From Branchiostoma floridae (taxonomy: Eukaryota; Chordata; Leptocardii; Amphioxiformes; Branchiostomatidae): 64,000 bases of DNA. The stretch is from NCBI RefSeq assembly GCF_000003815.2, contig NC_049988.1:16922088-16986087 (forward strand), given 5' to 3'. Under the pieces are notes generated by a model, which was not told where the DNA came from, did no database searches, and saw nothing but the letters and a program-made list of their open reading frames with translations. Made by a program: the position numbers and the translations under genes. This document shows, one piece after another, positions 34,481 through 60,388 of this stretch (position 1 is the stretch's first letter; each line of letters opens with the position of its first letter).

Positions 34481-34568
34481 NNNNNNNNNNNNNNNNNNNN
34501 NNNNNNNNNNNNNNNNNNNNNNNNNNNNNNNNNNNNNNNNNNNNNNNNNNNNNNNNNNNNNNNNNNNN
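34469..34568. other. Assembly gap of 100 N
   Basis: A run of exactly 100 N, a standard gap placeholder. Its flanks (caagatggca and cttgactatctgctg) are matched in the complementary left arm at 29862-29925, where only about 24 bases separate them. Confidence 0.97.
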
Positions 34569-36049: not shown

Positions 36050-37080
36050 TCTTTCTCAGTTACATATGTGACAAATTTGAAAGTCCTATCACGGAATGCA
36101 GTGGATTTATCAACTTTCCTCATTAATCATGCAAATTAGCTGTTAATTTGCATACTTAGTATATCATTACGTAAGTTTTTACTTAGGCTATCTACATACT
36201 AAAAATCATGACGATCCGTCAACACGTTCATATTTTGCCATTGATTATGCAAATGAGGTCATCATCTGCATAATTAATATGTATTGATATTTCTTTCTTT
36301 CTCAGCTACAAATGTGACAAGTTTGAAAGTCCTATAAAGGAATGCAGTGGATTTACAAACTTTCCTCTTTAATTATGCAAATTAGCTGTCGATTTGCATA
36401 ATTAGAATTCCATCATGTAAGTCTTCCCTTTGGCTATCTACATACCAAAAATCATGACGATCCGTCAACACGTTTATGTTTTCTCATTAATTACGCAAAT
36501 GAGACCGTCATTTGCATAATCAATTTGCCTTCATATTTCTCTCTTTCTCATCTATATATGTGACAAGTTTGAAAGTCCTATCATGGAATGCAGTGGATTT
36601 ATAAACTTTCCTAATTGATTATGCAAATTAGCTGCTGATTTGCATAATTAGTATTCCATTATGTACATTGTTACTTGGGCTATCTACATACCAAAAATCA
36701 TGACGATCCATCAACACGTTCTCGAGTTATTCTCGTCCAAAGGAAAGTCCAAAGGAAATCGGCGACTGCAGTTCCAAGAAGCCGCTAGGGGGTCCAAACT
36801 TACAGCACTTACTCTCTGCCCCAAGGGCTATCTACCACTCAAAAATCACAACCAAAGCATGTGCAGAACACGAGATATTAAAGATTGAGGTTCTGCTGCA
36901 GTACCTTAGCAAGCCACTAGGGGACCCATTATGGAACTTGACCTTCGTTTTCCCGACCCCTATCCACCTACCAAATATCATTGGGATCCATCCAAGGCTT
37001 CTCGAGTTATGCTCTTAACACACATACACACAGACCCACAAGCCCAAAACATAACCTTAGCCATTCTGGCAAAGGTAACC
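36050..37080 (+). mobile_element. Partial copy of the ATTATGCAAAT foldback family
   Basis: It contains repeated attatgcaaattagctg, catgacgatccgtcaacacg, gcagttccaagaagccgctag, gaacttgaccttcgttttcc and ends acacacagacccacaagccc. It closely resembles the right half of 26830-29057. Its end is the apparent empty target site of the 6.3-kb element. The flanking stretch 35390-36049 holds no recognisable gene. Confidence 0.7.
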
Positions 37081-39104: not shown

Positions 39105-39297
39105 GTTGCCATAATGGACAGAAGGATTCACTACAACACCACTATGCGGTTCGACTTCAACACGATGCAGCTGATCTTCTACTGCGAGGCCTTGGACATC
39201 GGGACCGGCACGTCCGACAACTCCGGTAAACGCGAGAGTCGCCAGGGGGCAGCAGAGCACGCGATCGAACACCTGCTTAAACGGCTGAGGGAAAACG
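39105..39297 (+). CDS. Exon with half of a double-stranded RNA-binding-like domain
   Basis: After the acceptor at 39104 the exon reads through ATG at 39114. RFDFNTMQLIFYCEALDIGT resembles the beta strands of a dsRBD. GTGTSDNSGKRESRQGAAEH followed by AIEHLLKRL matches its last part (G-x-G-x-S...K..A...AA..A...L). The usual first helix is not in this exon; either an upstream exon supplies it or the domain is degenerate. The match is moderate. Confidence 0.5.
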
Positions 39298-42200
39298 GTA
39301 TTGTTCTAGGACTTTTCTATGTACTAACTAAGTTTGCTTGCAATATCAATTTGGGCTTGCAAGATTGTGATACTTACTTGCGTATGCAATCAGAAACTAG
39401 CTGTTGTTTGCATAGTGTACAGAACGTACCTGTTGAAATATCAGTCAACCGATTATTTCATGTCGCAAATTTTTCATTGCTCTGATATGTTAAGTACTGA
39501 TACCCTTCGTGCAGCCGCCTGACTTCAATGTCACATCACGGAAATAGCAGCAGACAGATTCATTCCGTGAATAATGCTGACGGAGTCAGGACATTGTCTC
39601 GCGTAATTTTGTCAAGCTTGTGATGATGTGATTACATGTTAAACATATAACGTTATTTACCTTAAGACAATAACGACTGGACTGCAGAAAGATAGTAGGG
39701 AGTCAAGTGCACTACACATTATTCTCAATACAGACCTGCCGGATTAAAGTAATGATGTACTAAACAGTAAAACAATATCCTGTAATACATTAGGCGAAAA
39801 TCGATCTGAAGACAAGTCTTCGAGCTCTAAATGACCGTCGTGAGTGAGACGTCCGGTGTTCTCACGATCATCCTGCGATTGTTAGGCATCGCCGGCGATT
39901 TTCAGGGGTCGTACGATGGTCGACATTCGATTGATAGTCGTGCGTCCATCCAGCACAGACCCAGTTATTAATCATCAAGCGCAAATCGGATGGCGAACGC
40001 CCGTCAGTCGGGCGACGTTCGGGCGACGTTTTCCCGACTTCCGTTTGTTTACAAATATTGAATTTCTGAGAATGTGAGGGTAGTTCTGACATTGTGGCCC
40101 CTGTGGCAGTATATAGGCTGGCTTTGTGACACAATTTCTTTTCTTTCGTCATTTCTAGCATGCCCGCGCATTCCATTAATTGGTTTAAAAAATTAAGACA
40201 ACATTAAGACAAGAAACAACATATATTGATATCTTGCCTTTCTGTGAGGAACGTTTTGTGTTACTTTGTCCGCGTGCAAGAGGTCATGGAAGGTTCATTA
40301 TCATAGATTTATTCAGAGATGATCGCACGAGCCTCGCTTATATGTGACGGGAACAGTTTTTGGGCGAAAAGTACGCAAGACCGTCTTAAGATCTTAAAAT
40401 CAGCCGACCTTCCTGCGATCGCGAAGTACGTCCGAAGATCGTATATAATGTGAGGGGGGTATAAAGAGTCTGATTGTAACTTTTATCGCTTATTACCATT
40501 TATTGATTTAACGGAATCGACTACTCAAATTAAAGGCGATTTCTGATAATTGTTTTATACTAGTAGGAACAAGGTATTTAAACTGTAGTGCGAATTTAAA
40601 CTGTTGATATATGTAACTTTTAACTCGTTGTAAGTAAAAAGTACATATATTTCTGTTGCATGTCTGCAAGGACAGGTTTTACTGGAATAAACCATTCGTT
40701 CAATCATTCAACATGTTTAGAAAGCTATTCAACTCAGACCGTGTTGTATGAAACATGTACGGTGAAATTCCAAGCACTTTGGCAATTTATTTACTGCAGG
40801 GATTCTCCTACGTTCTGAGGAGGATGACCCAAAAAGATCGAGTATATCATCAGGGCAGACGACAGAAGAGACTTTGGGTGAGAAGACATACATACACAGT
40901 CTAGGTAGGCTACATGTATGCATACATGTACATGTAGCCTACCTAGCATTTTTCTGCGTTTAGCGGCAACAGTTCGATATATTCGGTTGATTGACATATA
41001 GCAAATGGTTATTTTTGAACGAAGACGAAATTCTTCAATGTACCTCTTATGAAGCATATTCAAAAGTAATCGTTGACTTAAAGTCTTTGGACAGGAATTA
41101 ACAATATGGCTCAGTCTAACAGCGCATCATTTGTAGCATTGGGTATCAAATTATAAAAGCGTTTTAGATGTAAGATACCGATTTGCAATACACCGTTAGA
41201 ACACACAATACACAATACACACAATACACACAATATGAGACATATTGTCACTTCAGGTGACTTTGAGAAGTTGAAGCACCTGCTAACGGAGGTGAGAGTA
41301 GAAGACGACTCCCGTACTGACACCTACAACAGACTGGCCAGGCACGTGGCAGAGTCAGGGCTGACCTTCCGGGCTGAGGTGCCGAAGGACGGAAACTGCA
41401 TGTTTCATGCCGTGTCTGATCAACTCTTCCGTACAGAGGGGAGACGAATTAGCCACGGGGAGCTGCGCAAGCAAGTTGTTGACTTCTTGAGGCAGAATCC
41501 ACATAATGTAAGTAAATGTTGTCAATATTTGTAACAGGTATTTAAACAGTTATACCCCTGTCACATTATTCATGGTCTTCGGGCGTATCGATGGAAGATC
41601 GGCCATATTTAAGATCGACAGTGGGTTTCGCGTATTTTTCACCTGAAAACCGCCCCTGTCACATACTCTGTACCTTGCACAATTGTTGTGCAATAAAGTT
41701 ATTATCATAAGCGAGGCTCGGGCGATTGCCGCAGAATCGTCGTCTAAATGTTGTCAATATTTGTAACAGGTATAATACGAACATAGCATGTCTTTACTAG
41801 GTTAGCAACAGTTTAACAAGTATCGGGAGATGTTTCTCCGAAGTCAGTTTTATTGACGATATGCACAAATTTATATACTGTAATCGGTTCTTTGAAAGTT
41901 ATTCATCCAAAATCGACAAAATAAAAGTTCGGAGACCTCACACCTCCGTGAAATATTTAAAGCCTTTAGCTTTGAACATTTGTTGTTTCATCTTTTGGCA
42001 TTGATTATACAAATGATGCCTGTACTTAATTAGCACAATTTGTTTTATTATCTCCATAAGAAATAGAGATGTTGTTTAGGGTGTGACTGTGTGTTTCTGG
42101 ATTTTTGTAGTCTGCATGACGTCAGATTACGAGGATATTTGGTATGAAGGTAGGTGTTAGGAACACAAAAGTCAAGGTCGGTTTTGGGCCCCATGGCGTG

Positions 42201-45200
42201 TGACCTTGGTACTGCAGCCGAACCATGTTTCCATCTTATGACCTGAACGCACTATGATTTTGACTTTTTTGGTGGCAGCTAGCTCGAGATGTACGGAGTA
42301 GTATAGGTTTTGGGACATCTTGCAGAGGGAACTACAGGGACATTTTTGTCATAATCTCTCCAAGGGGAATGACTGATCAAAGGAAGGACGGATTTCCGTG
42401 ATATGTAGTATACAGTTAGCTTAGAGAGAGATGTACACAATGAAGCTCAAGTTATGCAAATTGGGACTTAATTTGCATAAGCATTTATGAAAATATCTAT
42501 TTGTAATGTCGTCCATTACTTGACTTTCAAAATACATGTAAGGTATGTAGTATATGACAGGGGGAACATTAACAGATACGAGTAATGCAAGTTCCTGACT
42601 TGCATAATCAATGCAAAAGTGCCATAGTTCTTCTCAGTGGTAAATGCTTGCACTGTCGACATTGTGTGTAAGTTAGTTAAAGGATTGATATGAACGTCAC
42701 AGATGTAATCAAAGGAAATGATGGTAGAAAACTATTGATTAAGTTAAAAGATCTTACAATTCTTAATGTTTATGTACCAACTGAAAAGAAGGAGCAACAA
42801 ACCTTCCTTACCACTCTAAGGGATTGGATTAATGACAACAATGTCGATAATCTGATTGCTGGAGGTGACTTTAATATGATAAATAACACAGCTATGGATA
42901 GGAAAAGTAAACAATCTCTGGCGCCTAGCGCAGGTGAAAAATAACTAATTAGATTTAAAAGACAGCTAAAACTCGCGGATATCTGGCGGGAGCGCCACCC
43001 CCAGGTGAGGCAGTTCACCTGGAGGCGGAAGAACCCAGACTTAATTTCAAGTAGAATAGACTTTTGGGTCATTCAGAAGTCAATTATTGATTCTGTTGTG
43101 AAATGTGACATACGCTGTTCTATAAAAACTGATCATCAAGCGATATATTAAAAGTTATTACTGACAGACTTTGCTAGAGGACCCGGAGTGTGGCGTTTCA
43201 ATACTTCACACCTTTCAGATGATTGTTAATGGTGTTAAGTCCACTCTTATTGATGTCGTTAAAGAGTTCAAAGACAATAATGTATCGAAACAAATGCTCT
43301 GGGAAGGCTGCAAAAAAAGATTAAGGACTTTACGGATAAGTTCTCTAGACAAAAAGCATTCCAACTGAATAACGACCTTGTGCGCTTGGAAACTCAGCTA
43401 ACAGAACTTGAAGAGAGAATAGATGAGACTTTAGATAAAGATGTTCTTGATGTATATGCACAGGTTAAGTCAAAAGTAGAAACCATCTATGAATATAAAG
43501 CAAAAGGGGCACAAGTAAGATCTAGAGAACAATGGATCGAAAAAGGGGAAAAATCCAACAAATATTTCCTATCTCTTGAGAGCTCCCGTTCAAAACAAAA
43601 CACCATTACTAGATTAAAGCATGAGAACAGAGAGGAAACAAATCCGTTTGAAATTTTAGATTTGGAGGCAGCTTTCTATAAAAATCTTTATTGTTGTGAT
43701 AGTCCTGCTACTGACGAACAAATCGACACGTTTCTTGAGTCGGTTGATGTACTCTCTCTTTCGGATGAGGACAGACTTCTGCTTGATGATCCTATAACAA
43801 AAAACGAATGTTTTTTAGCTTTAAAATACGTACATGAAGCAAAATGAAGCTCCCAGAACTGACGGCATACCAGCCGAATTCTACCTGAAATTCTGGAAAG
43901 AAATAGGAGACCTGGTCTTCGAATCCTTGAAAGAAGGGATAGAAAATAAACGCCTTTCAGTAACACAGAAGAGAACCTTATTAAAACTTATTTATAAAAA
44001 GGGTGATAAGACTGACTTATCCAATTGGAGACCAATAAGTTTGCTGAATACTGATTTTAACTAGCAAAATGACTGCAGGACTTTCTTCCAAAATTGATAT
44101 CCGAGGATCAAACCGCCTACATTAAGTCCAGATTTATTGGAAAAAATGTGAGACATACACAGGACGTTATTTACTACTCCACTTTTTACAACATACCTGC
44201 TGCAGTCGTCTGGCTAGACTTTGAAAAAGCCTTTGATTCGAATTTTATGCTTAAAGTTTAGACAAGTTTGGGTTTGGACCCACATTTACCTCCATAGTTA
44301 AGACCATGCATACTGACATAGAGAGTTGTATCATAAATGCTGGTTGGAAATCTGCTTATTTCAAACTGCAGCGAGGAATCAGACAGGGATGTCCTCTGTC
44401 AGCCCTATTATTCAACCTGGTAGTTGAAATTCTTGCTACTAAAATTCAACAAACGCGCACAGTCAAGGGTATTAATGTCGAGATTAATGATAATATGTTT
44501 GAACTAAAGATAAGTCAAGTGGCAGACGATACAACGCTTGTCCTTTACAATGATGATTCTATAAGAAATCCCTTACAGATTGTAGATGACTTTAGTAATG
44601 TGGCTGGACCTACACTAAATCGTAGAAAGTGTGAAGCTATGTAGATTGGGGCCAATCGAGGACGAAGAGACACTCCCTTCGGAATCGACTGGCCAAATAG
44701 ACCCATTAAATCCCTTGGAATTTACTATGGTTTGTCAGAGGACGAGTGTGAGACTTTGAATTGGGAAAAAAAGTTATAGATAGATAACTTGGAAAATATG
44801 CTTCTAAAATGGCTAAGTCGCAAATTAACCCTTTACGGTAAAGTACTGATGATAAAAACATTAGCTATCTCCCAAATATATAATATGTCCATGATCTCAA
44901 CACCTGACTGGGCCTTAAAACGTATTGAGAAAGCATGTTTCTCTCTTCTATGGAACCGCAAACCGGACAAAATAAAAAGATATGTGCTGTATTCAAATTA
45001 CCAAAAAGGAGGGTTAAAAATGGTTGATATATATTCAAAACGCAGTAGCCTACAGGCTGTGTGGGTTAAAAGACTAATGCATTCGGCACTCGATGACACT
45101 AAAGAGCGCCACTGGCATCTTGTACCATTACACTTTATTAATCATTTCGGAAAAGATTTCCTTCTCTTCCGCTTCAACTTTTGTAAAGGAGGAGATGCTC

Positions 45201-48200
45201 TTTCTCTGAGAGTGCTCCCACCTTCCTATAGACAGGTAGTTCTGACCTGGTACGAACTTGGAGGGGGAAAACAGACTTTGTAAGACAAAGACAAGAAATA
45301 ATTTGGTGTAACAAAAACTACAAGTTTAATAACAGCACATTGTTCTTTGAAAACTGGATCATTTTTAGGAGCGGATTTATATATGTAAATGACTTATGTG
45401 AAAACTCTGAATATGTAGCAGCATCTGAAAGCTAAGAGACAGAAGCAACTGGATGAGTGAATTTATGCAGGTCTATAGCTGGACTGATGAAAACGATTGT
45501 ACTGGTCGCGAAACATCATATGGCACTTGTGTATGGTTCAATTCCAGCAAGATTTCACTTGGAAAATGTTGTAAGACCTACTGCCCAAGCATATTGGGAT
45601 TCTGTAACCCCTAATCTTGATTGGAAAGCTATCTGGGAGTCCCAGACATGTTATATCAGATACAACAAGCTCCGCGAATTTAATTTCAAATTGCTCCATA
45701 AAATACTTCCTTGCAGGTACCTCCTAAACAAGTGGAAAATAAGAGATACGTCTGGAAATGTATACAGTCCTTTTTGTGATATTTGCAATAAGCTGGAAAA
45801 CTATGAACACATGTTTTTAGAATGCACTAGACTAAGGAAATTTTGGGGTAGAATAAATAACACTGAGGACAATCAATCTGTTGATAATGTATTGTTGGAA
45901 TATAACAAATGTAGCATTACTTTGCTGACTATCGCCAAGTATTCAATTTATGTTTCATGGCTACGATGGAAAGATAACCCGAGACAATTACTACTTGACG
46001 ATGTACACAATACCTTTGTGTCCCTATGCTCCCTGTACAGAGCTGACATAAAATAAAGTACCGTGGCGGACACGGAAAAGTTAAAAAAAAAAGTTAGTTA
46101 AAGGATTGCATAAAAAAGCACAAATTTTGTAGATGTGGAAGTCATTTGCATAGTCAGGATATTTTGGAGGCTTCGAACCCTGGTCTTTTTAACCCAAAAT
46201 ACAGATATACAGTATGTGTAGTCCTTTCGCTTGGCAGAATTCCACATTTTATTATAAATCATACAAATGACTTGCACATTTACATAATTCGTACATCTAT
46301 TTTACTAACTTACACATATCACATGTATGTAATCCCCACTATTTACCACTATGGAATTATGTCACTTTCACATTAATCATGCAAGTTAGACTCTTATTTG
46401 CATGATTATTAGTATCTGTTTGTACTTCACTTACCATTCATATGCATTGCGTGTATGAAAGCCTTTTTTTTGAAAACACTATGGATTTACACTGTGGAAT
46501 TACAGATTTTCCTTATCTGCCATGTAAATTAAATCCTGATTGGCATAGTTGTCATGTCATTGTCAACATCTCTGCCTAAACTCTATGAATACCGAATATA
46601 ATGGGGATTCGTCGTTCCTTTCTTCTGAGTTTTCCTTAATGAAATATTTTACAAAAACGCCCCTGTAGTTTCAGAGAAAGCTGACAGGGGACCCAAACCT
46701 TCACCATTTCGTCCTTGCATCAAACACTATCTGGGACAAAGAATGAAGGCATGTTCAGGACAAAAGATACAAAAACCGGAAGTTCTGCTTTAGTACCAAT
46801 GTTACACATCAGGTATTGACCTTCGCCTTTTCAACCCTTATCCACATACCAAATATCATTACAATCCATCCAAAAGTTATGCTGACCAAAAATATCCGGA
46901 AACACTAACATACGGACACACCTAAACGATACCGCTATTTTTTTTACGAAGGTAACACTTCTACACGCAGATAGATTTTACCTAACCGTAGTATGCAGTC
47001 ATAATGCTGATGCTGATGTTGTATTTAATTTCCAGGCCAATGGTGACCATCTCAGTGACTTCGTCCCAGATCAAAACTGGGAAAGCTACCTGGACACCAT
47101 GTCACATGATGGGACGTGGGGAGACCACATCGTCCTACAGGCCATGGCGGACATGTTTGGTCATGACGTCAGCATCGTGTCCAGTGTAGAGGCGGAGAAC
47201 TACGTCACCATCCTGACACCAAGTACCGGGACTGTGGGCAGGAGAGAACCTCCTCTGTTACTGGGGCATTATGCCGAGAACCACTATGCAAGTCTTGGTT
47301 CTGGTAAGTTGTATTTTTGTGTATGTAACTCAATGATGATGATATATGTAACCTAATGCATCCTTATACATGTACCTCATTCATGGCAAAGACATATTTG
47401 GGAAATTTCTATACAAATTACAATATCATGACAAATATTCCAATCAGTCAAGGAGATTAGGAAATAGAGACAATGGCATTGTGTTAAGAATTCCCAATAA
47501 ATCAAAAGTTCTGAATTGAATTCTGAACCGTTTGATACATTGTAAAAGATACCTGTCACATAATATGCCAAACTGTTTGTAAATTCATCATCATAAGGAC
47601 ATTATTCCAGAGGGGTCCCTGAAAACATCTCAAAACAGAAATACTAACATGAAGATCCATTCTTACATTTTACGAAGAGCAATGCAAGTATTATACAAGT
47701 AGCTTACAAAAGCTTCAAGGCTAAAAATCTTATTCTAAGGCCAAGGATTTTATCTATTTTCTAAAACCTTAGCTGGGTCATGAAGCAACATAACCAGTAG
47801 CTCATAACAGCCAAGAAGCTGTAATCACCCAGACCTTTGCCTAGAATAGTACTTCAGCTGATTCAATATAAATATATTGGAGTGAACACAACGATCTAGG
47901 AATGCGCTAAGAAACAAAACCATTGTATAACTAACTAATTGATGGGCTATTCCTTCCATGCAGAATTCAGCAGTGTCCCGGTGGAAATACAACTGCGTGG
48001 TCCTCGTATGCAGAAGCTTTACTCTGATGCCTGCCGCCGAGGCACCGGTCGGGTACACAGCTTACGTGCGCTCGTGGTTGGTAAGTTCGAATCTGGGAAG
48101 ACCTGTCTCGTCAAAAGGCTGACAGGAGAAGAGCCTGTGGAGAATGAGCAGATAACAGACGGTATCGAGATTTCACCAAGTGTGAACACGCAGACTTGGC

Positions 48201-51200
48201 GGAAGGCAACAGGTTCGAAATATATCTTTATGCATATATCTAAAGCCAGATATGAAGTAGTTTTTCATATCATTTTCAGCTTTCCACTTCAAATAGATAA
48301 ATTGTGATTAGAGAAGAAAATAAAAATACATACAGTAAAAACACGTACATATTGTTATGCTTACATCTAAAATATTTTGTGTTGTTGCAATGATCATGAA
48401 ATGGCCTCAATGTTTACTCGTACCTTCTGGATATTAACTTTTTTGCCAACAGCGGAGCCAGACGACTTTAAAGAAACCGTGGCACAGAATTTAGCGGATT
48501 GGATTGAATCTGAAGCAGACCAAGAGACACCGTCACCACCTGAAGAGACAGACGAGCAGGAAAGCAAGAGGAAAGATGATACAGGTATAGATAGCTTTGA
48601 TAGATGTTAATAGATAACAACATCCACTATAAAGGATCTGTCTGACACATTTGACCAAGACAGAGAGGGAAATCGACCGAGAAATCTAAAAGGCAGTGCT
48701 GATGACAATAACGTAGAATAAGTAGCATTCCCTCTTCTAACTACTGACACAAAACGCATAGTAATTAGTCTGTGACCAGACCCTCTGGTCGACAGACTTT
48801 TAGTTTTGTCACGTTTACGCGCGTTCGCAGCTGTATCTGTATGTTCCCGTTGTCTGAATTCTATGTGGTTTGGCAGGTCCTCTGTACTGAGGTTGACGAT
48901 GATGCACGTGACCTTTTTTTTGCGGCAGGTGGTTTTATTATGGATTTTATAAAAATAACACCCCTACAATTTGTTCGTCTTGCGGTGTTTTGGTCCAGAT
49001 CCTCTGTATGTGGGTCATGGTGTCATTGGAATTTGTCAAGCAGATGCGTGGTGTTACCTGATCGTCAAAGTTATTCGCGTTCGCATCTGTATCTGCATGT
49101 TCCCGTTGTCGCATACGTACGTTGTTTGGCAGGTCATCTGCACTGAGGTTGACGATGATGCACGTTGTTTTTTTTTTGCGGCTGCTGGTTTTATTATGGA
49201 TTTTATAAAAATATCACCCCTACAATTTGTTCATCTTCCGGTGTATTAGTCCAGATCCCCTGTATATGGGTCATGCTGTAATTGAGATATTGCAAGCAGA
49301 TGCGTGATGTTCTCTGGTCGTCAATGTAACGCGCGTTCACATCTATATCTGCATGTTGCCGTTGTCGCATACGTTTGTGGTTTGGCAGGTTCTCTGCACA
49401 TAGTTGGACGATGATGCAAGGTGTTTTATTTTTTCGGCAGCTGTTTTTATTATGTATGTAATAATTTCAGAAATCATCCATGCAAATTGTACGTTTCACA
49501 GTGTATTGGCCCATGTCTGCATATGGCGCCCGTTGAAGTAATTGGTTATAGTCAAGCAGATGCGCGATATGTGCATCAATTTTACGCGCGTTTGCTTTCT
49601 ACCTCTTATTCAACAAGTTTATCCGTACTACTTTATGTACCAGCATCATGGACCCCGGGATTCGCCCATTAACACTGTGTCATGCTACCTTATGGCTTCA
49701 CACTAGTTAAAAACTTATCGCACAGTTCATCATCAACAGCTGTGTGTTATCGTATGTGGGACATGGGAACCGACATCTAATGTTCCACTAATGACCCTGT
49801 CAATCAAATGCCTCCTGTTGCCGTTTGCAATGAAGCGTGTAAGAATTCTCGTCCCAAATGAAGTTTAGCCATATTATATTCCCGGACTTCGACTAAGAAA
49901 CATCAAGGTCCTATTCCATGCTTCATACGTATTACGTCCATAACAGAAACATGTTAATACTTGGTGCGTTTGTCAGTCTGTCTGTCGGTCTTGTAGGTGT
50001 GTCTGTGTGTGAATGTGCCTGTGTATTAGACCCTCCGGTTACTTATCGTCACCATATCTTTTAGACTTTGGCCACATGTTATCTCACAATCCATACCTTT
50101 TTAGTAAGATTCACATGACACAGAAATATTAAGCAACTTTAGATACAACTATATATCTAACACCATGAAAAGAATCATATAGGATATAAGCACAACGTCA
50201 CACACCAAAGAAGACAAAACAACCAACATATACCAGACCGACGTCACAGACTATGTTACCTACGGTCACTTGTTAGATTTGCCAATGTATTCTGTTCTCT
50301 TTGCCCATGCTAGAAGCAGAAAACATCAAAGAAGAAACAGAGAACCCCGTCCAACAAACGCAACGAGAGCAACCGTCAGAGAAAAAAGAGACTAGGTCGC
50401 AAAGGAAGGAAACACACAAACGGAGAAGTGAAGATGAGAAACATGGCAAGTATTTTCCACACATTTTCTACACTTGAACTGGAACAGTGCGTTCCTTACT
50501 GGCGCCGCCGGCGCAGCTGGGCGTTCCAAGTCACTTCGCGACCCCCTTCGCACGAGAAGCGGAATCAGCCCGAATGCCGTCAGAATGACTGTTCTTTGTA
50601 TATTCCTGTGAATTCGTAGTGCTTTCTAGAAATTCTTACTGTGTTTCATGTATTTCTGCCCACCCCTGGGGCGTCCCAAATGTTTTCGTCATGCTCAAAA
50701 CTCTCGTAGTGCATTTGAAGTGTATTCTAACTGCAGTATGACCGCATTTGACGGCATTTCAACATTATCCGAAACATTCCTATCTCATTCCATGGAGTAT
50801 TGAAACGGCAAGCCACTTCCAATCCTGCCAGAATATGGCTAAAAGAATACCTGGAATGCAGTGAGAATGTCTGGAATGCAGTTCAAATACCCAGGAATAG
50901 ATAAAGAATAGTTATTCTGAAGGCATTTCGGCTCATTCCTTCTTGTGTGAAGGGGATACAAGGTCCATTGGAATTTTCGCCCAAATGTGGCAAATCCGAC
51001 TCGTTCTGCTTGATTCCTACTGATTCGGTTTCAGTGTGGAGGCCTTATTGTCGGACTTCGGCTGAGTCAAGTCATATTAATCATTTCTTTCACACGATGA
51101 CTTTCGTAAAGTACATGCCGCCAACCCACATAATGCTGATGGCGATGGTGTCAAACCACAAACCAGTAATTCACAAACTTTACGTTACAGGTGGGAAAGA

Positions 51201-54200
51201 AGGTGATAGCAGGGAGAAGCCAACCCCAACCCCACTTATTCCTGACGACATCTTAATGGGAACCAAAAAGCGACTCCAAGGTGGCGTTACAGAGGAGCAG
51301 CTTGGAACAGCTGAATATCCGCGTATCTCCTTCTGGGACTTCGGCGGCCAGGCAGCGTACTACGGCTCGCACCAGTGCTTCTATACCTACCGCGGCATCT
51401 ACATCCTGGTCATGTCACTGCTGCAGAAGCTGTCAGATCCAGTTCCTGATCTGGACTACCAAGCATCAGCAGACAATCTCATGACAGGAAAAGGTACTTA
51501 ACCCTATTCAGATGTGTGTGTGTGGGGGGGGGGGGGGGAGGGGGCTACGCCAACTTTCATGTCGTATAACGCTAGAACGGCTTCCGCTATAGCCACCAAA
51601 TTTGGTGAGTTTTGCTAAAACATTGTTGGCAACAATTTCCTGAAGATTGAAAATTTAACTGCTATCATAAGTAAAATCTAATGTTATTTAGAATATCTTT
51701 CATAATTAAATATGCATAAATTATGCTCATCTAAACATTATTGCTTACGTAGTCCGTCAAACAGAAGGACATGGTGATGATAACTTAATTTTTGCTTACT
51801 TTAAAGTGGGTAGAGATGACAACAGTGTATAGAAATAAGCAAAGCTTCTGTTTGTACAGACTACTTGGACTACTGGGTGAACTGTGTACGCACACACACC
51901 CTGGTGCACGGGCGGGAAAAGTTGGGAGAGCCTCCTATCATTCTGGTACTCACAAACAAGGACCAGGTCAATGAGGTAAGCATAACCTATTATAAACATA
52001 ATTTTCAAAAATTCCATATATGAAATTATTACAGTTGTGCTCACTCCATGAGAAATGAAAAGCTGGAACATTGGTCTATTTCTATATCCATAGGTGGACA
52101 TCGAGGACTACATGAAGAAAATACAAGAGCACATCGAAAAGATGCCAGAGGATTTCAGGAAACACATCAACCTAAAGATATTCGTCATTGACAACTTCAG
52201 CGACGACAGCAGCACCTTCGACGAGCTCCGAAACGAGCTGCGTGAGGTCGCAAAGGGCATGTGGTACATGGGCCAGGAGGTGCCGATAACCTGGCTTCAT
52301 CTGAAGTCCAAACTGATGGACAAGAGGGGAGAGGACGACCCATTCTGCTCTTTCCAAGATGTCGTACATCTGGCCCGGAGTGTGGACATCACAGACGTCA
52401 GCGAGGTTCCTGGTATCCTGACCTTCCTGCACGACCTTGGTGACATCATCTTCATCGGCCGTCCGGCCTCAGGTGATGATTGACGTCTTCAAGACCATCA
52501 TTACCGTCCCTCAGTACCAACAAGGCAGGGCAACAAATGAGAAAATCGGGGCGATGTGGAAGAGGCTAGAGAATGAGGGTGTCCTGAGTGAAGAGTTGTT
52601 GACTAGCATCTGGACAACAGCAGACAAGAAGCTTCCGTTCCTACTAAGAAACAAGGTCTTTCTGAAGCGACTGATGGAGAAGTACTACCTCATCTGTAAC
52701 GCAACGCCGCCGAACAAGTCAAAGCAGGAAGAAATCTATTTCGTACCATCTCTGCTGGCCGCAAAGCCAGACGAAGACACATTGTATCCTCTAGATATGG
52801 CCGCCAGATTCCGGTCACCTCTGTATGTCGTATTTGAGCACATGTTCCTTCCAAGTGGCATGTTCTACCGTCTACAAGCAATTTGTGTGCGTAGATTTGG
52901 TCTTGGAGAATCCAGTGTGTATGCCGGCTGTGCACGTTTCCCTACTGATGATCCTAAGCAGCACTTCGTGTTAACCAAAGTAAACGACAAGCTGAAGGTG
53001 GAGATTCTGTCGGCTGATGAAGAGCGGCCGGTGTTCACAGAGGGCCTTCCAGTGAGAAAGTTCCTCAGCAGCTGTCTCTTTGACATCAAGGAGAAGTGGA
53101 TTCCCTCCATCCAGTATGACTGGTGCACTTGGGAAGAGCAAGAGCAAGGCAGACCAGTGTTCCGCCCGCTCCCTGACACCGGCCATGAAACAGAAATGGA
53201 ATCAAGTCGGTGAGTACACTTGTACGCTCATGTTATGTGACATATGCTTCCAACGAAAAGTTTTCTTTATGAAAATGAACTGATAATTTCAGTCATTATA
53301 GGGCAATGTATACTTTTTCTTAAACAGCATAAATGAAATAGACGTTTACACTGGCTATGTCATGGTAATTGGTTAAGGTAATTGTAGCTACCTGTCTGTC
53401 TCTCTGTTTCAGATTTTCAGAAGACTTTGTTGAGACGTGGATGGGTGGTAGATGTGACCAGAGAACATTATGCGCAGGTACGTTTATGAAGGTTAGACAT
53501 CCAGCATGATTCAGGTTAAAATGATGCAAACACAATTCAATCACTACAACTAGATATAAACGGAGATTTACTTCCGGACGTTTCGAGTGATATCAATAAT
53601 CCATCACTCTTCTTGATAGAGTACTATAATCGAGAAGGAACGTAAAACGGGGGACCGTGTTCGAGGAGATGCCTCGAGCACGTTGAAATCAACCTCATTA
53701 CTAAAAAAAAATGGGCACTTACTGGCTGCAAATACTACATCAGATGTATTACTATAATGCTGAAGAAGAGTGATGGATATCGCTCGAACGAACGTCCGGA
53801 AATAAATATCAGTTTTTATCCAGTTGTAATTCTTTCTGGCACTTTCTGATAAAGTTAGACAGACACTAAAACAGAAAGAGAACATTCCTCTCTTTCTCAG
53901 TCACATATTTGACAAGTTTGAGAGTCCTAGCTTGAGAATGCAGTGGATTTCCTCTGTTGATTTGCGTAAGTAGTATCAAACTATGTGCGTCATCACCTAT
54001 TAAGCTATTCACAAATTAACAAAAACCGTGACGATCCGTCAACAACACGTTCTTGAGTTATTCTCATCCAAACTTTAAAGTAAAGTTGGCCCCTGCAGTT
54101 CCAATAAACCCTCAAGGGGCCCAATTTCTTTAGCAATGGGCTATCTACCATTCAAAAATCACGGCTACAGCACGTCCAGAACAAGAGATATCAAAAATAG

Positions 54201-57200
54201 AAATTCTGCTGCAGTACTTTAAAGAGTCGCAAATGCCATTATCGAATTTGACCTTTCAGACCCCTACCTCCGACCTTCCTACCAAATATCACCAGGATCC
54301 ATCCAAGGCTTCGCGAGTTATGTTGTTCACAGACAGACAGACAGACAGACAGACAAATAAATAAACACACCGAAAACATAACCTTCTTAGCGAACTTTGT
54401 GCGTTTGCTCATATTCATACAGAGAACTCAGGTGGTACAGGGCCAGTGATGATACAGCCCACTCTGAGAACAGATGACGTAAGTCCAGTGCGCACTATCG
54501 GCCCTATCCTGGAGTGCCTGGAGACGTGCGGGGGACTCACCCTGGGTCAATGTGATTCCATCAGACGCCAACCCACATATGTTGGAAGGTTCACGGAAAT
54601 GGTTGCCATGGTAAACAACAACGGAGACGCGAGCCGCCGTATGTTAGGGGCGTCTCTTGAGATCTGCCGACCAGAAATAGCACCTTTGTTTCCACGGGAA
54701 GAGAGAGGTAACAATTTTTCTTAAAACCTTCTTGTTTAAGCTGTGGTTTACACCTTGCTTTACTTAGCTATTTAGCGCAACTTATGTGCAGCATCCCTTG
54801 TGTATGTCTGTTGTTTTATCATTCATCACGTTTTGCTTCAATTCTAGGGAACGAAGTTGTTGTGCTACATGTCGGTGACTACAATGACAAGCTTGTACAG
54901 CCACTTTTGCAAGAGGTTGTCAAGTCATCTAGTAGATACGGTGTATGCATCAGCGAAGACGTGATCGAATCAGGAGATGTCATCACTCAGAAAATCTTGG
55001 ATCATCTTCTAAGAACAAGCGTCAGAATGGTGGTACCAGTCATCACTCCGGACGTCCTTCATGAGAAGCACTGGTCCAAGCTCGGGTACGAATTCTCCGT
55101 ACAGAACCAGAACATGGTCTTTCCGGTATTCGTGTATCCAGCGGGACATAGGGAGAGGCTGCGAGACGCGTTGCGGTGGCACTGCCCGTTGATGTTAGAA
55201 ATGACATCAGCAGAAGTTTCAGTGACTGAAGAACAAGTGTCCAGCACCAAAGTCGGCCTCCTCTCTGCAGAAATCCTGAATAAGGTGCGTCGATACAGCC
55301 TTATGTACGTTCGTATGCTTATTTTGTTAAGTTGGAAACTTTAAGGAAAGATACATCTATTGGCTTCACGAATGTACCATATCGATTGACGGAAAATTGA
55401 TTCCACATATAGGCGTCGACCTCGGTTGAGCTGAACACCTTCATCATATCGACGGACGCTTGCACGTTTGAGGAGCATGGTGTAACTATCGTCTTCCCGG
55501 AAGGATGTGTCATGAGTGAAAGGGCACTATCTTTAGAGGTAAGGTCTGTTGTGTTGCAGTAGGCTTATTTGTAACTCTGTCATTTGAGGTTGAGTTGCTC
55601 AGACCCAGAAAATGACTACCGTTACTGTTCAAGGAATAGTTTCTAGATACCCTCTTTTCTAAATGCGGTCTTTTTTTGTGTCAATTCATAGGTTGAAGCA
55701 CTGCCCACCAATGACACCATGACAAGTAGATTTTCAGCTGTGACATCGATGCTGACTGTGCACCATGGACAGGAGAAAGGTTTCCTGGCACCCGTGACCG
55801 TCACCCTGCCATGGACATGGAAGAGTGACGGTGACCTCGGCAGGACCGTCATCATGAGAAGGTCAGGCGGCGGCCAATGGTCGTTATTGACGACAGAAAT
55901 CCAAGAGACTGCGGAGACGGTCACATTTACAACGGACCAGTTTAGCAGGTAATGCACTTCGCTAGTCTGTCTAACACAAACTCTGCTGTCCGGGGCTGTA
56001 ACTGGTCCCTCCCCGCAGGAGGCCGGCCGGATGTTGGGCGGGCTGCTATAATCGAGATTTAATCAGGCTAGCACTTTGCTAGATAGAAAAACAATGACAT
56101 TTTTCTTTTTATTTTGTTTCTGCTTAGGCGGGGTATACCCTCTGTTTAATGGTGAGCTATCTGCCCCTCTATATATCCTCTGTATATGAATGTGCTAAAT
56201 TCTACCCTGAATTTTTGTTTTAGCATTGTCGGTGCAAAGACTACAGATAATGACGCAGGAAGTTCAACTTCTGCTGACAGTACAGGAAAGCAGGAGGAGG
56301 CAGCCGTTAAGAAGGCAACAGATGACATTCATATCGTTGTAACGGAGTACAGTGAAGACACGTCACACCTCATAATCAATCCCAACCAAGCAACAGAAGA
56401 AGAGAATAGCGTTCACCTGCTGTGTCTCCGCAAGGGCGACAGAGTCGAAGATTTCTTTAGGGCACCAAATTTGCAATCACCCTCGCCGGTCGAAGTACAG
56501 GTGGTCATGCACAAAAATGAAAGAATACGTGCATGGTTCGGTGAGGATGAAGACGTCATTGGAGATTCACGCGACATTCCCAGGCCTGATGGTATTCTTT
56601 TTGTATACCCTCCGGCGAACCGTAACCGATTCTCTGTCAGGCTGAAGTTGCAAGACACCAGTACTCAAACAAGAGCGGGAAGGTTGGATGGGAAGGTTCA
56701 TTTCACACTGCTGTCAGAAGCAGGGGAACCAGTGAGTGACCCTAGACGAACAATCAATCCTGTCCTCGTTCACTTCCTGATCCAGCAAGGTATCTTTTTT
56801 TTAAATCTCATGTTAGCTTGATTTGAAACTGGAACTAAGGCACAGCGAGAGTCCAACAAACGGTAGATGTAAACGTTGTGGTAATCAAAGCACATTCAAA
56901 ATATCTATTCCCTTACTTTCTATTCGAAATCAACCTAGTAATTTAGAGTAAAAGTTGTTCCAACGGTTCTGAGGAATTAACTTTACACATTTTGATATGC
57001 AACTGCATAGTTGCATGATATGCAACTAGTTAACTGTATGTTCTACGATAGACGTGAAAAAGTAAAAACATGACATTGACTTCAGCGCTATGCATGTTGG
57101 GAAGCAAATTTGAACATGACATCTGGATGTAAATCACATCGGAACAAGCACCCCCGACCACCCAAAAAATGTATCCACAATTTACGAACAACTGCTGTAT

Positions 57201-60200
57201 CATTGTCTTGACTGTAATTACTCAGGTACAGAGACACGGAAAAGGTTGCGATCAGCTGCCAGTTCATCCGACCAGGAGGCCCCTGTCAAGCGAGGAAAAC
57301 AACATCCTGGCGCAAAGCAAGAAACAGGGCGGTCCGGACGGAAGACGAAAGGTGAGTTTGCATTGAATTATGTTAAAGGTATTGACATCATTGGAAAATA
57401 GTCAACCTTTATACATCTTTCTGTGCATACAGACATACATAATGAGTTGGACAATAACATTACAACTACTTTTATTACCAGTAAAGATGCATGGTATTCT
57501 TGACTGTACAAGCTTAGTTTCAGCTGATTCGACGACAAAACATCAGCAAATAAAATTTCATGGACCATTGACCTTTCTGTCTATACTTTGTTACTTACAC
57601 GCTGAGGAATATTTCATCAGATATGCAGGAAATTTATGGATATTTCATCATAACTTTTCTCGGAAGGAAACAATGACTATGCATAACCATGATAGCAAAG
57701 CCTATTTTTTTTTAAATCCCTGCCATTAGCCCGGATCCGTGGACTCGTAAGTTACCAAATGATATTTTGTATGATCCCTTATTGTGTTTATTGTTTGTCA
57801 GGCACTATATATGGCCCATAAGGACAAACAATTTGACTATACATTTAAAAAAAAAACAACAATAGTCTAGTACTTCAAATCAAAATACAGGGTTCACACC
57901 GTATCTCTTATTGTTCCAGTTGATGTCCATTTATTGTTTGCGCCTTCATCTAATCTCCAAAAAATTTCAAATCGACCTTTTCATAGGGTTCGAGAAGAGA
58001 GGATGTAAACTATGTCGTGGTATTGGCAATACATAACCTGATAACATCCTGCCTTCCCAACTTGTATTTGTTACATTGAAGACTATTTATAACCTGTTTC
58101 TTAGACGCCGCATTCACGAACAGCCCTTCCAGCGGAACGAGGTTGTCTAAGTCGACAGTAAAGCGACGGAAGTCACCACAGCCTTCCTGCAGTAGTGCCA
58201 AAGGAGCGACTACAAGTCAGTAGATTTTAGACATTAGTCAAAACAAGGTTCACTTTTATAATTTCGTGACACAAATTTCATACACCTAACGACTGGCAGG
58301 ATGAAGATTTTTTTTTGCTTTATTTTCTAGGTGGAAAATCCTCTGGTTCATCAAAACACATATACTTCACTGACAGTTCAAATTCGTCAGACGAAGATTC
58401 TCCTGATGTTTCACCAGCAAGACGACAGCCAACAAGAACATCATCAGCAAAAGGCGAGAAAAATGCAAAAGTCTTACTGTAACTCAAGCACTGAATCTTT
58501 TGCAAAATTCAAGAGTGAAATTGAGCAGAAACTGTAAATTGACGCAATGCTAACTGTGTCCTTGTGCTTCCTTAGGGCAAAAGACCAAGAAACGGTCGGC
58601 TGCTAGCGTCAGTTTACTCGACCGGAAGGCACCTGCCAAGCGACGAAATCAACACAAAGGCGCAAAGAAAGAAGCAGGACGGTCCGGACGGAAGACGAAA
58701 GGTGAGTTCACATTGACATCATTGGAAAATGTTCAATCTTTGTTTATCTTTCTGTGCATGTCACGATCGATATACCGTAATGATAGATGATTTAGCAATG
58801 TCACTCTAACTACGTTTATTGTTTGTCAAGTAAGAAAGAAGCATCATAATTGGCTGTACAGTTCATGATGAGATTTTGTTAGAACTGATCAGCACCTATA
58901 AACATTTAACCGGAAAAAAGCATGTTCTGTTGCACTGCAGTATTACTCCAATTCAGAATCAGAGCATCATAACATAGTCCTTTGGTCTTGGCAATTGTGA
59001 TCCAAATGAGATCCAAACCGGAAGACATGCTGTCGTACAGGGAAACACCACTAGGATCATCATTATATCTTCATTTTGCCAACGCCTACCAATATACAAA
59101 ATACATTGTACCATAAAGATCCATCCATGACTTGGCGATTGCCAGCTGTTTACAAACAAACAAGTAATAATGTTCTTTCACTTTACCGACCTAGCCTCCT
59201 ACGAAACCTTCTAAGAGACTGTCGTTTTTTTTGGGGGGGGGGGGTACAGTTGATTCGGTATTTTCAACAGATCCTTATAATAAAAATAATGATAATAATA
59301 ATAATATCGGGTATATTTTGCAGCCAGTAGATACCACAAGTGTGGGTAATGAGGCTGTTTAACGTGGTTGAGGCACCTCCTCGAGCACGGGACCCCTGTT
59401 TTACGTCCCTCCCGGAAGACGATTATGCCGGGAATGTCGTGTCTGCACCCGCTAGAAAAGCTGGCCTATGTTGAAAATCGCAAATCAGCGCTCCCAAACA
59501 AATAAGCACCAAGCTAGAAGTCTGCGAAGGAGGCTAGGTCGGTAATGTGATGAATGTGAAAGAACATCGTTACTTGTTCGTTTGTTTGGATGACTTTTAA
59601 TGACTACACTATGGTTTCAACGGATAGCTTTTACCGACTACACTATTATGTGGTGGCATTTGTATGAATGTTGTTGTCTCAGTTGACGTGTCGAAGTATT
59701 TCGACAAAGTCATCCGCGGGGCCAGCGCCGACTGGGACGAATTGGCACGAAAGCTGAAGTTCGGGGAAAACGAGATAAAAGAAATAGAAGATGAGAAACG
59801 TGGCAACCGTAGGAGATGTAGGGAGATGTTGGAACGGTGGAGGAACAGAAAGAGCAAGGTTGCGACCATTGAAGTTCTGAAGAAGGCTCTCGCCAAAATC
59901 GGACACCAACTCACTGCCGACCGTTTGGAAGGTAATTTTGAATACGGTATCTCTTCAAATTCTTCTATTGCATTGGACCTGTTGCGAGTCTAATGATTAC
60001 ATCCTGAACGTATTTTTAAATGATCCTTGCTCACCAATTGTATATAATTACTAAAACGATTTAGAATGAACAGATTTCCTTATCTATTAGTAAAAGATAC
60101 ATTTTTGTCCGTCTCTCTCATGACTCACTTATGATGATTTATATCATTGGTAGTTTTAAGAAAATAAAGCCCCGGACTGCGTCCCAAATATGGTGATGGC

Positions 60201-60388
60201 CTTGCGATATCCTTGCTAAGTGACCACACTGTCAGCGGTCCTGCTCCCTCACCGGACATGAGTGTACAAGGAACATAATGCAATCTATTACTGTAACAAC
60301 ACTTCTTCATAAGACGCTTGAAAAATAGTTATTTCTTCTTTTCTCAGATTCCTCAGCCTCATCGGAGTCTTCAGAAGACTGCAACTAA
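39105..60388 (+). CDS. Large death-fold ROCO gene: dsRBD-like, OTU, ROC-COR, CARD, TIR-like, ZU5, UPA-like, DD
   Basis: Exons: 39114(ATG)-39297, 40800-40877, 41257-41507, 47036-47303, 47964-48212, 48453-48584, 50314-50445, 51191-51493, 51860-51975, 52094-53209, 53413-53477, 54423-54707, 54848-55284, 55413-55538, 55692-55948, 56224-56789, 57226-57351, 58105-58215, 58576-58701, 59683-59931, 60348-60388. All 20 junctions are phase-compatible; 14 are phase 1. The total is about 1,740 codons. Only one flaw appears, a frame break in COR near 52460-52480. The first exon begins after an acceptor (39104), so an upstream exon is likely. Probable role: a cytosolic signalling scaffold linking a deubiquitinase and a Roc GTPase switch to CARD/DD death signalling. 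Neighbouring DED and FADD-like genes fit this. The join of the last five exons to the rest is by phase and canonical ZU5-UPA-DD order, not by transcript. Confidence 0.68.
40310..40460 (-). repeat. Interspersed repeat, also at 41555-41740
   Basis: Read on the minus strand: acccccctcacattatat, gatcttcggacgta, ttttaagatcttaagac, gtcacatataagcgaggctc. The plus-strand copy at 41555-41740 has cccctgtcacattattca, gtcttcgggcgta and ataagcgaggctcggg. Both are in introns of the large gene. The stretch 39780-40050 between exons has similar gtcgtacgatggtcg-type sequence. A MITE-like family is likely. Confidence 0.5.
41257..47303 (+). CDS. OTU cysteine protease module (two exons)
   Basis: Exons 41257-41507 and 47036-47303, joined in phase 0. 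FRAEVPKDGNCMFHAVSDQL carries the catalytic Asp and Cys (about residues 132 and 135). RRISHGELRKQVVDFL and SYLDTMSHDGTWGDHIVLQA follow, with the usual W-G-D helix start, and ENHYASL supplies the catalytic His (about residue 254). All three key residues are present, so an active deubiquitinase is expected. The 5.5-kb intron between the exons splits the domain and has been enlarged by a foldback element and a LINE. Confidence 0.88.
41990..46960. mobile_element. ATTATGCAAAT-family foldback element containing a LINE
   Basis: The left end has gtgactgtgtgtttctgg, ggtatgaaggtaggtg, gtcaaggtcggttttgggcc and ctgcagccgaacc. The right end has the inverted equivalents: gttctgctttagtacc, attgaccttcgccttttcaa and acataccaaatatcatt. 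The LINE at 42688-46090 interrupts it at an attagttaaaggattg block that other copies show unbroken (for example about 27841). Confidence 0.65.
42688..46090 (+). mobile_element. 5'-truncated, inactive non-LTR retrotransposon (LINE)
   Basis: Perfect 18-bp target duplications aagttagttaaaggattg lie at 42670-42687 and 46091-46108, with an A tract at the 3' end. It begins inside the endonuclease domain (LNVYVPTEK, GGDFN, FTWRR then SRIDF). It continues with GAQVRSREQWIEKGEKSNKY, the reverse transcriptase (DGIPAEFYLKFW, NWRPISLLN, WLDFEKAFD, RGIRQGCPLSALLFN, VADDTTLVL) and the thumb. A C-terminal C-x2-C-x6-EHMFLEC knuckle follows. Stops at 42942 and several frameshifts break it. The pattern suggests the L1/Tx1 group. 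It lies in the intron splitting the OTU domain, in the gene's own orientation. Confidence 0.92.
47964..51975 (+). CDS. ROC GTPase module, split by a charged linker (five exons)
   Basis: Exons 47964-48212, 48453-48584, 50314-50445, 51191-51493 and 51860-51975. The P-loop is GKFESGKT (about residues 300-307), preceded by LRALVV. Switch II/G3 is ISFWDFGGQAAYYGSHQCFY (DFGGQ about 481-485), and G4 is LTNKD (about 563-567). These are the signature motifs of Roc domains in ROCO proteins. Two 44-codon exons rich in Glu, Lys and Gln, plus part of the next exon, separate the P-loop from G3 by about 175 residues, far more than in other Roc domains. The intron after 50445 begins with GC (GC-AG class). 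Confidence 0.85.
48810..49625 (+). repeat. Intronic tandem repeat, about three and a half units of 255-265 bp
   Basis: gcgcgttcgcagctgtatct, gcatgttcccgttgtc, ggtttggcagg, gttgacgatgatgcacg, tggattttataaaaatA(a/t)ca and cccctacaatttgttc recur at about 48817, 49075, 49329 and 49587. It lies in an intron of the Roc module. Open frames at 48772-49146 and 48971-49249 come from it and are not genes. Confidence 0.8.
52094..53209 (+). CDS. COR domain exon with a frame break
   Basis: The first part (frame of 52094) reads VDIEDYMKKIQEHIEKMPED, VPITWLHLKSKLM, CSFQDVVHLARSVDI, LTFLHDLGDIIFIG, all typical of COR. It then reaches a stop at 52481. The downstream frame is shifted by +1 and resumes with RPQVMIDVFKTIITVPQYQ, VLSEELLTSIW, ARFRSPLYVVFEHMFLPSGM, FYRLQAICVRRFG and WIPSIQYDWCTW. 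The segment normally linking the halves (about ten residues before PQW-hIDVF) is missing, so a small deletion is more likely than a single base change. A splice-acceptor-like cctcag/GTGATG sits exactly at the join. Either the allele is broken or the assembly collapsed here. Confidence 0.8.
53545..53830. mobile_element. Foldback MITE in an intron
   Basis: Inverted arms of about 70 bp: atttacttccggacgtttcg and catcactcttctt at the left pair with aagaagagtgatgg and cgtccggaaataaat at the right. The outer ends (tacaactagatataaac versus gtttttatccagttgta complemented) extend the match. No coding. No clean target duplication identified. Confidence 0.7.
53895..54400 (+). mobile_element. Partial copy of the ATTATGCAAAT foldback family
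   Basis: It contains acaagtttgagagtccta, aatgcagtggattt, gacgatccgtcaac, attctgctgcagtac, aatttgacctttc, ccaaggcttcgcgagttatg, a short (acag)n run and ccgaaaacataaccttctta. It lies just before the CARD exon. Confidence 0.65.
54423..54707 (+). CDS. CARD-like domain exon
   Basis: A single exon, phase 1 at both ends, 95 codons. VRTIGPILECLETCGGLTLG, QCDSIRRQPTYVGRFTEMVA and NNNGDASRRMLGASLEICRP fit the six-helix CARD pattern (GxLT, a charged helix 3, G-x-A-x-x-x-h-x-x-x-L). As a symmetric phase-1 exon holding one domain, it is a good candidate for exon shuffling. It could instead be another death-fold subfamily. Confidence 0.7.
54848..55284 (+). CDS. TIR-like domain exon
   Basis: A Rossmann-like alternation of strands and helices: EVVVLHVGDYNDKLVQPLLQ, SSRYGVCISEDVIESGDVIT, LLRTSVRMVVPVITPDVLHE, WSKLGYEFSVQNQNMVFPVF. 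The layout (strand, helix, ...I..G..I, then VPVITP, then W..E....VFPVFVYP) resembles TIR domains. The usual box 1 (F-D-A-F-h-S-Y) is replaced by VLHVGDYND. A catalytic Glu for NAD cleavage cannot be assigned with confidence. A TIR-like call is therefore tentative. Confidence 0.55.
55413..55948 (+). CDS. ZU5 domain (two exons)
   Basis: Exons 55413-55538 and 55692-55948, joined in phase 0. TFEEHGVTIVFPEGCVMSER begins the domain (G-V-x-h-x-h-P-x-G). The second exon has MLTVHHGQEKGFLAPVTVTL, a Trp-rich WTWKSDGD, RRSGGGQWSLL and TVTFTTDQFS, the usual late part. ZU5 is found before UPA and DD in UNC5, ankyrins and PIDD1; here it precedes a UPA-like exon and a DD. Confidence 0.75.
56224..56789 (+). 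CDS. UPA-like domain exon
   Basis: After a short SIVGAK link and a Ser/Thr/Lys-rich stretch, residues DIHIVVTEYSEDTSHLIINP, ENSVHLLCLRKGDRVEDFFR, VQVVMHKNERIRAWFGED and NRFSVRLKLQDTS give a beta-rich region. Its place and length match UPA, the partner of ZU5 in UNC5, PIDD1 and ankyrin. Identification relies on order and pattern. Confidence 0.55.
57226..58701 (+). CDS. Basic linker exons, including a duplicated 126-nt exon
   Basis: Exons 57226-57351, 58105-58215 and 58576-58701, all phase 1-1. The first and third are paralogues of exactly 126 nt: each has a Lys/Arg start, AP(V/A)KR, a His/Lys-rich centre and GRSGRKTK before the donor. The FADD-like gene has the same exon (63173-63298). Between them, 58105-58215 encodes a Ser/Lys-rich segment (STVKRRKSPQPSCSS). 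Many basic residues suggest a nuclear localisation signal or a simple spacer before the DD. Confidence 0.65.
58331..58481 (+). CDS. Possible alternative last exon
   Basis: Acceptor TTCTAG ends at 58330. Joined in phase 1 to 58215 it encodes SGKSSGSSKHIYFTDSSNSS, then DEDSPDVSPARR, and stops at TAA 58479-58481. Its use would give an isoform ending before the DD. No phase-1 donor is seen, so it cannot be an internal exon in frame. Related sequence precedes 63173 in the FADD-like gene (gaatcttttgcaaa-ttcaa). Confidence 0.4.
59152..59591. mobile_element. Foldback MITE in the intron before the DD exon
   Basis: The left arm acaaacaaacaagtaata, gttctttcac, taccgacctagcctcct pairs with the right arm aggaggctaggtcggta, gtgaaagaac, ttacttgttcgtttgtttg. 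Arms are about 55 bp. The centre contains a G homopolymer and an (ATAAT)-rich run near 59280-59307. No coding. Confidence 0.7.
59683..60388 (+). CDS. Death domain and C-terminus of the large gene
   Basis: Exon 59683-59931 encodes VDVSKYFDKVIRGASADWDE, LARKLKFGENEIKEIEDE, CREMLERWRNRKSK, then IEVLKKALAKIGHQLTADRL. This is a complete six-helix Death domain with the conserved W-x-x-L-A in helix 2 and E-x-L-x-x-W in helix 4. The last exon, 60348-60388, adds SSASSESSEDCN and a stop. The first 43 residues of the DD are identical at 37 positions to the DD of the FADD-like gene at 63874. Confidence 0.88.

Follow-up and report, generated by a model that had tools for sequence, protein, structure and literature searches.

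A probable mosaic ROCO gene, broken in the present assembly, within a lancelet tandem array of DED, DD, OTU and GT4 modules

Introduction

Does the lancelet genome encode, on one chain, a deubiquitinase, a GTPase switch and a set of death-fold adaptors? This question is raised by a 64,000-nucleotide stretch of Branchiostoma floridae DNA, hereafter the window (C10:16922088-16986087), for which a sequence-only reading had proposed a single uninterrupted gene running from a dsRBD-like exon through OTU, ROC-COR, CARD, TIR-like, ZU5 and UPA-like modules to a death domain (DD). All feature coordinates given below are window positions, and the features of the gene lie on the plus strand. The analysis combined a search of the genome (513 Mb, 431 contigs), a comparison with relatives at three further loci (A, B and C) and part of a fourth (D), and a comparison along the surrounding array, covering C10:16902001-17086000 minus 87 bases and with 2556 N within it. 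The reading preferred here, to which we assign a probability of about 0.6, is that of a mosaic ROCO gene that sits among tandemly arrayed DED, DD, OTU and GT4 modules and is broken in this assembly, and its basis is the exon orders, the homology and the frame break.

A ROC-COR core repeated in the genome

The Roc domain of the window is distributed over several exons. ROC exon 1 (47964-48212) carries the P-loop GKFESGKT behind a phase-1 acceptor, whose phase is the same in six other copies read, and is followed by ROC exon 2 (48453-48584), an acidic insert with partial homology in loci A, B and C. ROC exon 3 (51191-51493, with WDFGG) was assigned by Pfam and by homology in related loci, and ROC exon 4 (51860-51975, with TNKD) by homology in related loci. 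The end of ROC (ROC5) shares with COR the exon 52094-53209, after which comes a short exon (53413-53477) with weak matches in A, B and C only. Roc reaches 46.0 bits in Pfam against a cut-off of 27, and what we take to be its P-loop, DxxG-type and NKxD motifs were assigned by eye. COR, which the earlier reading had also named, is indeed present: it was identified by alignment to relatives, among them one that scores 44 bits with Pfam COR-A (cut-off 35.3).

Loci A (C18:3396325-3387813, minus strand), B (C18:16182725-16189009) and C (C12:2951494-2957447) contain the exons from ROC1 to UPA in the same order, and locus D (C18:3418924-3413064) repeats this order from ROC3 on, its ROC1-2 lying outside the fetched stretch. 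The core splice sites are kept in up to four related loci, and a DNA search located the ROC-COR exon in seven loci at 75-77% DNA identity. In A and C the UPA exon is followed by a DD with a shared linker exon, while in locus B a GT4-like frame (C18:16190163-16191398), 44% identical to an array GT4, comes after UPA instead of a DD; downstream coverage of locus D amounts to about 1 kb. As the same exon order is found elsewhere in the genome, the predicted assignment of ROC-COR-CARD-TIR-ZU5-UPA-DD to one gene is well supported. A constant core from ROC-COR through the CARD-like, TIR-like and ZU5-like exons to the UPA-like exon is present in several genomic copies, at least two relatives adding a linker and a DD to it, and it is apparently an undescribed ROCO architecture that is repeated in this genome.

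The exons between COR and the gene end

Downstream of COR, the exons are conserved and their domain names are weak. The CARD-like exon (54423-54707) is 56-62% identical in loci A-D, the TIR-like exon (54848-55284) 62-66% and the UPA-like exon (56224-56789), which is without a profile match, 38-52%. The two ZU5-like exons, a (55413-55538) and b (55692-55948), are conserved in related loci; hhalign against a single ZU5 that Pfam recognises gave E 7.4e-4 at a probability of 25.6. Of the four modules that had been claimed, what stands is therefore their conservation as exons; as for the names, Pfam CARD matched two of five family members (best E 0.0023), the window's own not among them, Pfam TIR matched one of five at E 0.011, which is below the cut-off, and Pfam ZU5 and Pfam UPA matched none of the five. 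Profile searches of the PDB returned a single match for the CARD-like exon (E 1.1, not a CARD), 23 chains at E up to 1 for the TIR-like exon, none named TIR, one unrelated chain for the ZU5-like exons (E 0.73) and three chains for the UPA-like exon (best E 0.04), with no UPA protein among them. Structure models of two exons were poor: the CARD-like model had a mean pLDDT of 49.6, with the NLRC4 CARD as second match at E 6.7, and the UPA-like model, with a pLDDT of 49.1, gave no Foldseek match at E 0.001.

At the end of exon ZU5b (about 55940), inspection by eye found QFS in the window and HFC in loci A-D. This is presumably the place where the ZU5 self-cleavage motif HFS occurs, and the change hints that the cleavage site has been lost in the window copy.

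Two Lys/Arg-rich linker exons, KR1 (57226-57351) and KR2 (58576-58701), were recognised through their copies, which precede the DD in neighbouring DED-KR-DD genes. A serine-rich exon, SS (58330-58464), was omitted from the model, as no clear donor was seen by eye. The death domain exon (59683-59931) scores 63.7 bits with Pfam Death (cut-off 22.6), and the last exon (60348-60388) encodes DSSASSESSEDCN and the stop. The Ser/Asp-rich end is similar, by eye, in locus C and in one array copy. Position 60388, proposed earlier as the gene end, proved to be the last base of the stop codon.

The broken ROC-COR exon

In all ten of the relatives compared, ROC5 and COR form a single exon whose open frame of 393-440 codons matches COR-A in full. 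The alignment likewise shows one open frame for ROC5 and COR in loci A-D and in three array copies. In the window copy this exon is split between two frames: the alignment shows it to be 26 nt short in comparison with loci A-D and 29 nt short in comparison with three array copies, near 52456. The 26 nt missing relative to A-D were placed at 52456-52457, a placement uncertain by a few bases, and the remaining gaps of the exon against these loci are multiples of three. Roc and COR are thus not in one continuous frame. Translation from the OTU ATG ends after 576 aa, covering OTU and ROC, at a TGA at 52481-52483, and the stretch from COR to the end of DD is open for 1004 aa in another frame; the window COR is missing from a list of 84 COR-A matches that includes the ten relatives. 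The break contradicts the proposal of one uninterrupted chain in this assembly, and of the claim that all exon junctions are compatible in phase it leaves intact the part outside the ROC-COR exon, since the frame fails inside that exon.

Rescue of the frame by splicing was considered and rejected. There are 122 frame-keeping GT-AG pairs at least 40 nt apart, none of them convincing; the pairs inspected lose conserved residues or have poor donors, and the one fair donor (GTGAGG) drops about 90 residues. As assembled, the window copy is interrupted and could yield an OTU-ROC protein of no more than 576 residues. Since the COR frame has an ATG at 52476, the part from COR to DD might conceivably be made as a product of its own.

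Two other accounts of the break have to be weighed against the constraint on either side of it, for which pairwise Nei-Gojobori dN/dS was calculated between the window and loci A-D, and for OTU against five copies. Among the ROC exons the values are 0.29-0.30 for ROC1, 0.15-0.29 for ROC3 and 0.47-0.59 for ROC5, the highest, which could reflect relaxed constraint. COR gives 0.22-0.29, CARD 0.13-0.25, TIR 0.21-0.29, ZU5a 0.18-0.31 and ZU5b 0.20-0.51. UPA has 0.37 against A, with dS saturated against B-D, that is, in three of the four pairs, and DD has 0.28 against A and 0.11 against C. OTU ranges from 0.19 to 0.49. Such pairwise values record past constraint and say nothing on the age of the break.

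According to the first account, the copy is intact in life, the break being due to faulty assembly or belonging to only one allele at a polymorphic locus, and a full OTU-to-DD protein is made. The frames, otherwise open for 576 aa before and 1004 aa after the break, and the low pairwise dN/dS on either side would fit this account, which nevertheless can be held only tentatively: a DNA search found no second haplotype copy of the locus in the assembly, the nearest assembly gap (34469-34568) is about 18 kb away, and 26 missing nt are more than a simple base-calling error would be expected to produce. The second account, by which the copy is a pseudogene that has been dead for some time, appears somewhat unlikely, as the roughly 4.7 kb predicted to be coding contain only one lesion and dN/dS is well under 1 elsewhere, although the frame break itself, the ROC5 value and the replacement of His by Gln at the ZU5 end all point in its direction. 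The mosaic gene, broken as assembled, remains our preferred reading, and its frame break is a reminder that arrays of this kind also yield dead or polymorphic copies.

The OTU exons as a front module

OTU exon 1 (41235-41507) has an in-frame ATG and the Cys box DGNCMF, and OTU exon 2 (47036-47303) has the His end NHYASL and a strong phase-1 donor, CTG/GTAAGT. By eye, an ATG is seen at the same place in five of the six array OTU1 copies, and the donor phase is identical in five other OTU2 copies. When joined, the two exons reach 64.1 bits with Pfam OTU (cut-off 23.3), and with the Cys and His boxes recognised by eye they are a predicted deubiquitinase module. OTU, Roc and Death therefore occur in the order claimed, all with Pfam scores above their cut-offs.

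The strong donor of OTU2 faces the strong acceptor of ROC1 across 660 nt, both in phase 1. Within this gap no comparable acceptor was found, the next best scoring 4.2 against 11.5 for ROC1 with a matrix that was trained on seven window sites, ROC1's own among them. A search for a first exon ahead of ROC1 (donor score of at least 5.5) found no candidate in three array copies and, in the window, one weak candidate of 5 residues. Array copy c3 has OTU, GT4 and ROC in this order, and the GT4 frames, three in all, lead into GTAAGT donors that score 4.1-5.2, less than the donors used for training (6.0-11.9). Copies c2 and c4 count against an OTU-ROC reading, having a caspase-like ORF with a stop ahead of ROC1. 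Moreover, phase fit at module borders is weak evidence, because the DED, OTU2, ROC1, KR and DD junctions are all in phase 1 (by eye).

It could be argued instead that there are two genes here, one for OTU and one for the ROC core, the latter with a first exon that went unnoticed. Other places in the array have OTU with no ROC core, for example before GT4, relatives A and C carry other N-terminal stretches, and a phase common to most modules makes the fit uninformative. The short spacing without a comparable acceptor and the single weak first-exon candidate speak against this division, which we consider unlikely. A mosaic gene in which OTU is the N-terminal module of the ROC core is plausible on purely splice-site grounds, and it is from the sequence that we infer OTU-ROC splicing, activity and partners.

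The stretch ahead of ROC varies between copies of the core. OTU in this place is particular to the window copy, and two relatives have ankyrin-like repeats there: locus A a run of them, and locus C such repeats together with a ZU5 (both by eye), the latter scoring 55.1 bits in Pfam. Ahead of ROC in locus B, the one frame tried had no Pfam match. No OTU on C18 or C12 was present among the 75 and 39 best-candidate OTU matches listed. A local capture of the OTU front is plausible.

The dsRBD-like exon and the upstream gene

The proposed first exon (39105-39299) is one of four dsRBD-like copies in the fetched array, all of which sit behind the same partner exon, recognised by TDAEIRQ.VRSISY or a divergent version of this motif (E 4.6e-21 to 7e-4; window copy at 35504-35608). 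The three other copies meet a stop 2, 2 and 10 codons past the exon, and one copy, on the minus strand, comes after DED, OTU and GT4 exons. The shared partner and the nearby stops in these three copies lead to the conclusion that with the dsRBD-like exon an upstream gene reaches its 3' end. Its dsrm score is 13 bits, under the Pfam cut-off of 23; two joined versions of the exon and its upstream partner gave no Pfam dsrm match, and the two-exon module has no real Pfam match.

A full OTU-to-DD model starting with this exon could appeal to a GT available after it, and is highly improbable in view of the partner exon in four of four copies and the stops in three of three others; in the window copy the bases at the stop position are altered and the frame continues to 39482. 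The exon was accordingly rejected as the gene start. The idea of a single gene survives for the ROC-to-DD exon order, which recurs elsewhere, and has to be given up for the dsRBD-like exon, and with it goes the suggested recognition of RNA through a first exon, which is left unsupported.

The surrounding array and a possible mechanism

With the window included, tblastn of window exons against the fetched C10 stretch located 6 OTU1, 6 OTU2, 9 DED and 6 DD exons, 4 dsRBD-like exons, and 4 ROC1 and COR exons; the array also holds 3 GT4 frames, and caspase-like pieces occur in 3 places. The OTU exons elsewhere in the array are 74-96% identical to the window OTU, and the three other ROC-COR copies show about 34-45% identity to the window in ROC1, ROC5 and COR. 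One GT4 frame has 239.6 bits with Pfam GT4-conflict, and the joined caspase-like exons match Peptidase_C14 at 8.2e-33, showing QAS, by eye, where QAC is usual. A GT4-conflict glycosyltransferase exon comes after OTU exons at three places in the array. Caspase-like exons, among them those at C10:16991959-16993823, adjoin ROC copies, and by eye QAS and QAT replace QAC in two of them. QAC is the usual caspase motif, so these exons are possibly inactive.

DED and DD exons are repeated neighbours along the array. A DED-KR-DD gene with a FADD-like layout adjoins at 62689-64000 and C10:16991959-16993823; its DED has 46.7 bits in Pfam, and its DD is 84% identical to the window DD. In this setting of DED, DD, OTU, GT4 and caspase-like modules, the core of the window copy is preceded by OTU exons and followed by KR-DD exons that are both local to the array. 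In the mechanism that seems likely, the ROC-COR switch would control assembly, the CARD-like, TIR-like and DD parts would recruit partners, which are probably the DED-KR-DD proteins of the adjoining genes with their closely similar DD, and OTU would trim ubiquitin on the complex.

Relation to known systems

Bacterial ROCO / AP-GTPase conflict systems have swappable partner domains, including GT4, TIR and caspase, as described in the main text of the source (PMC8195603). Like them, the lancelet genes combine a ROC-COR switch with varying modules, and exons of the GT4-conflict, TIR-like and caspase-like kinds are found within lancelet ROC genes or next to them. The lancelet differs in being an animal and in its constant CARD-like, TIR-like, ZU5-like, UPA-like and DD output, and OTU has no occurrence (0) in the main text on the bacterial systems (PMC8195603).

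Within animals, the C-terminal order of ZU5-like, UPA-like and DD exons is that of PIDD1, UNC5 and ankyrin, which are ZU5-UPA-DD proteins; unlike these, the lancelet protein has no Pfam ZU5 or UPA match and carries ROC-COR ahead. In the same group of animals, amphioxus immune and apoptosis genes have undergone lineage-specific domain shuffling, with some hybrids confirmed by cDNA, according to the accessible part of the text, which, unlike the window gene, is without ROC, OTU or ZU5 (PMC2575513). Brown-algal ROCO genes, proposed as immune receptors, join a ROC-COR core to shuffled N-terminal exons; in the accessible part of that source the exons shuffled are LRR exons and not enzymes, whereas the lancelet window copy has OTU (PMC11378527). 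Our literature search found no description of the OTU-ROC-COR-CARD-TIR-ZU5-UPA-DD combination; subscription journals and gene databases lay outside its scope, so novelty is unproven.

Tentatively, these observations could be drawn together as a lancelet ROCO family in which a constant CARD-TIR-ZU5-UPA-DD output is combined with an exchangeable N-terminal cassette (ankyrin, ankyrin-ZU5, OTU or OTU-GT4) by means of phase 1-1 exons and tandem arrays. Such a family would be the animal equivalent of the AP-GTPase conflict systems of bacteria, with a GTPase switch re-armed with different enzymes by exon shuffling. Should transcripts confirm the window gene, one chordate chain would unite a deubiquitinase with a GTPase switch and death-fold adaptors, and the genome would offer natural front-module swaps on a common core; it would then become testable whether animal ROCO proteins are re-armable immune platforms, as proposed for bacteria.

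Repeats and retrotransposon-like frames

Several other elements were observed in the window. The intron between OTU1 and OTU2 contains LINE-like retrotransposon frames at 42681-46056, with endonuclease and reverse-transcriptase-like pieces recognised by eye. A tandem repeat of 256 bp occupies 48817-49454 in the ROC2-ROC3 intron, and another, of 246 bp, lies at 36050-36721.
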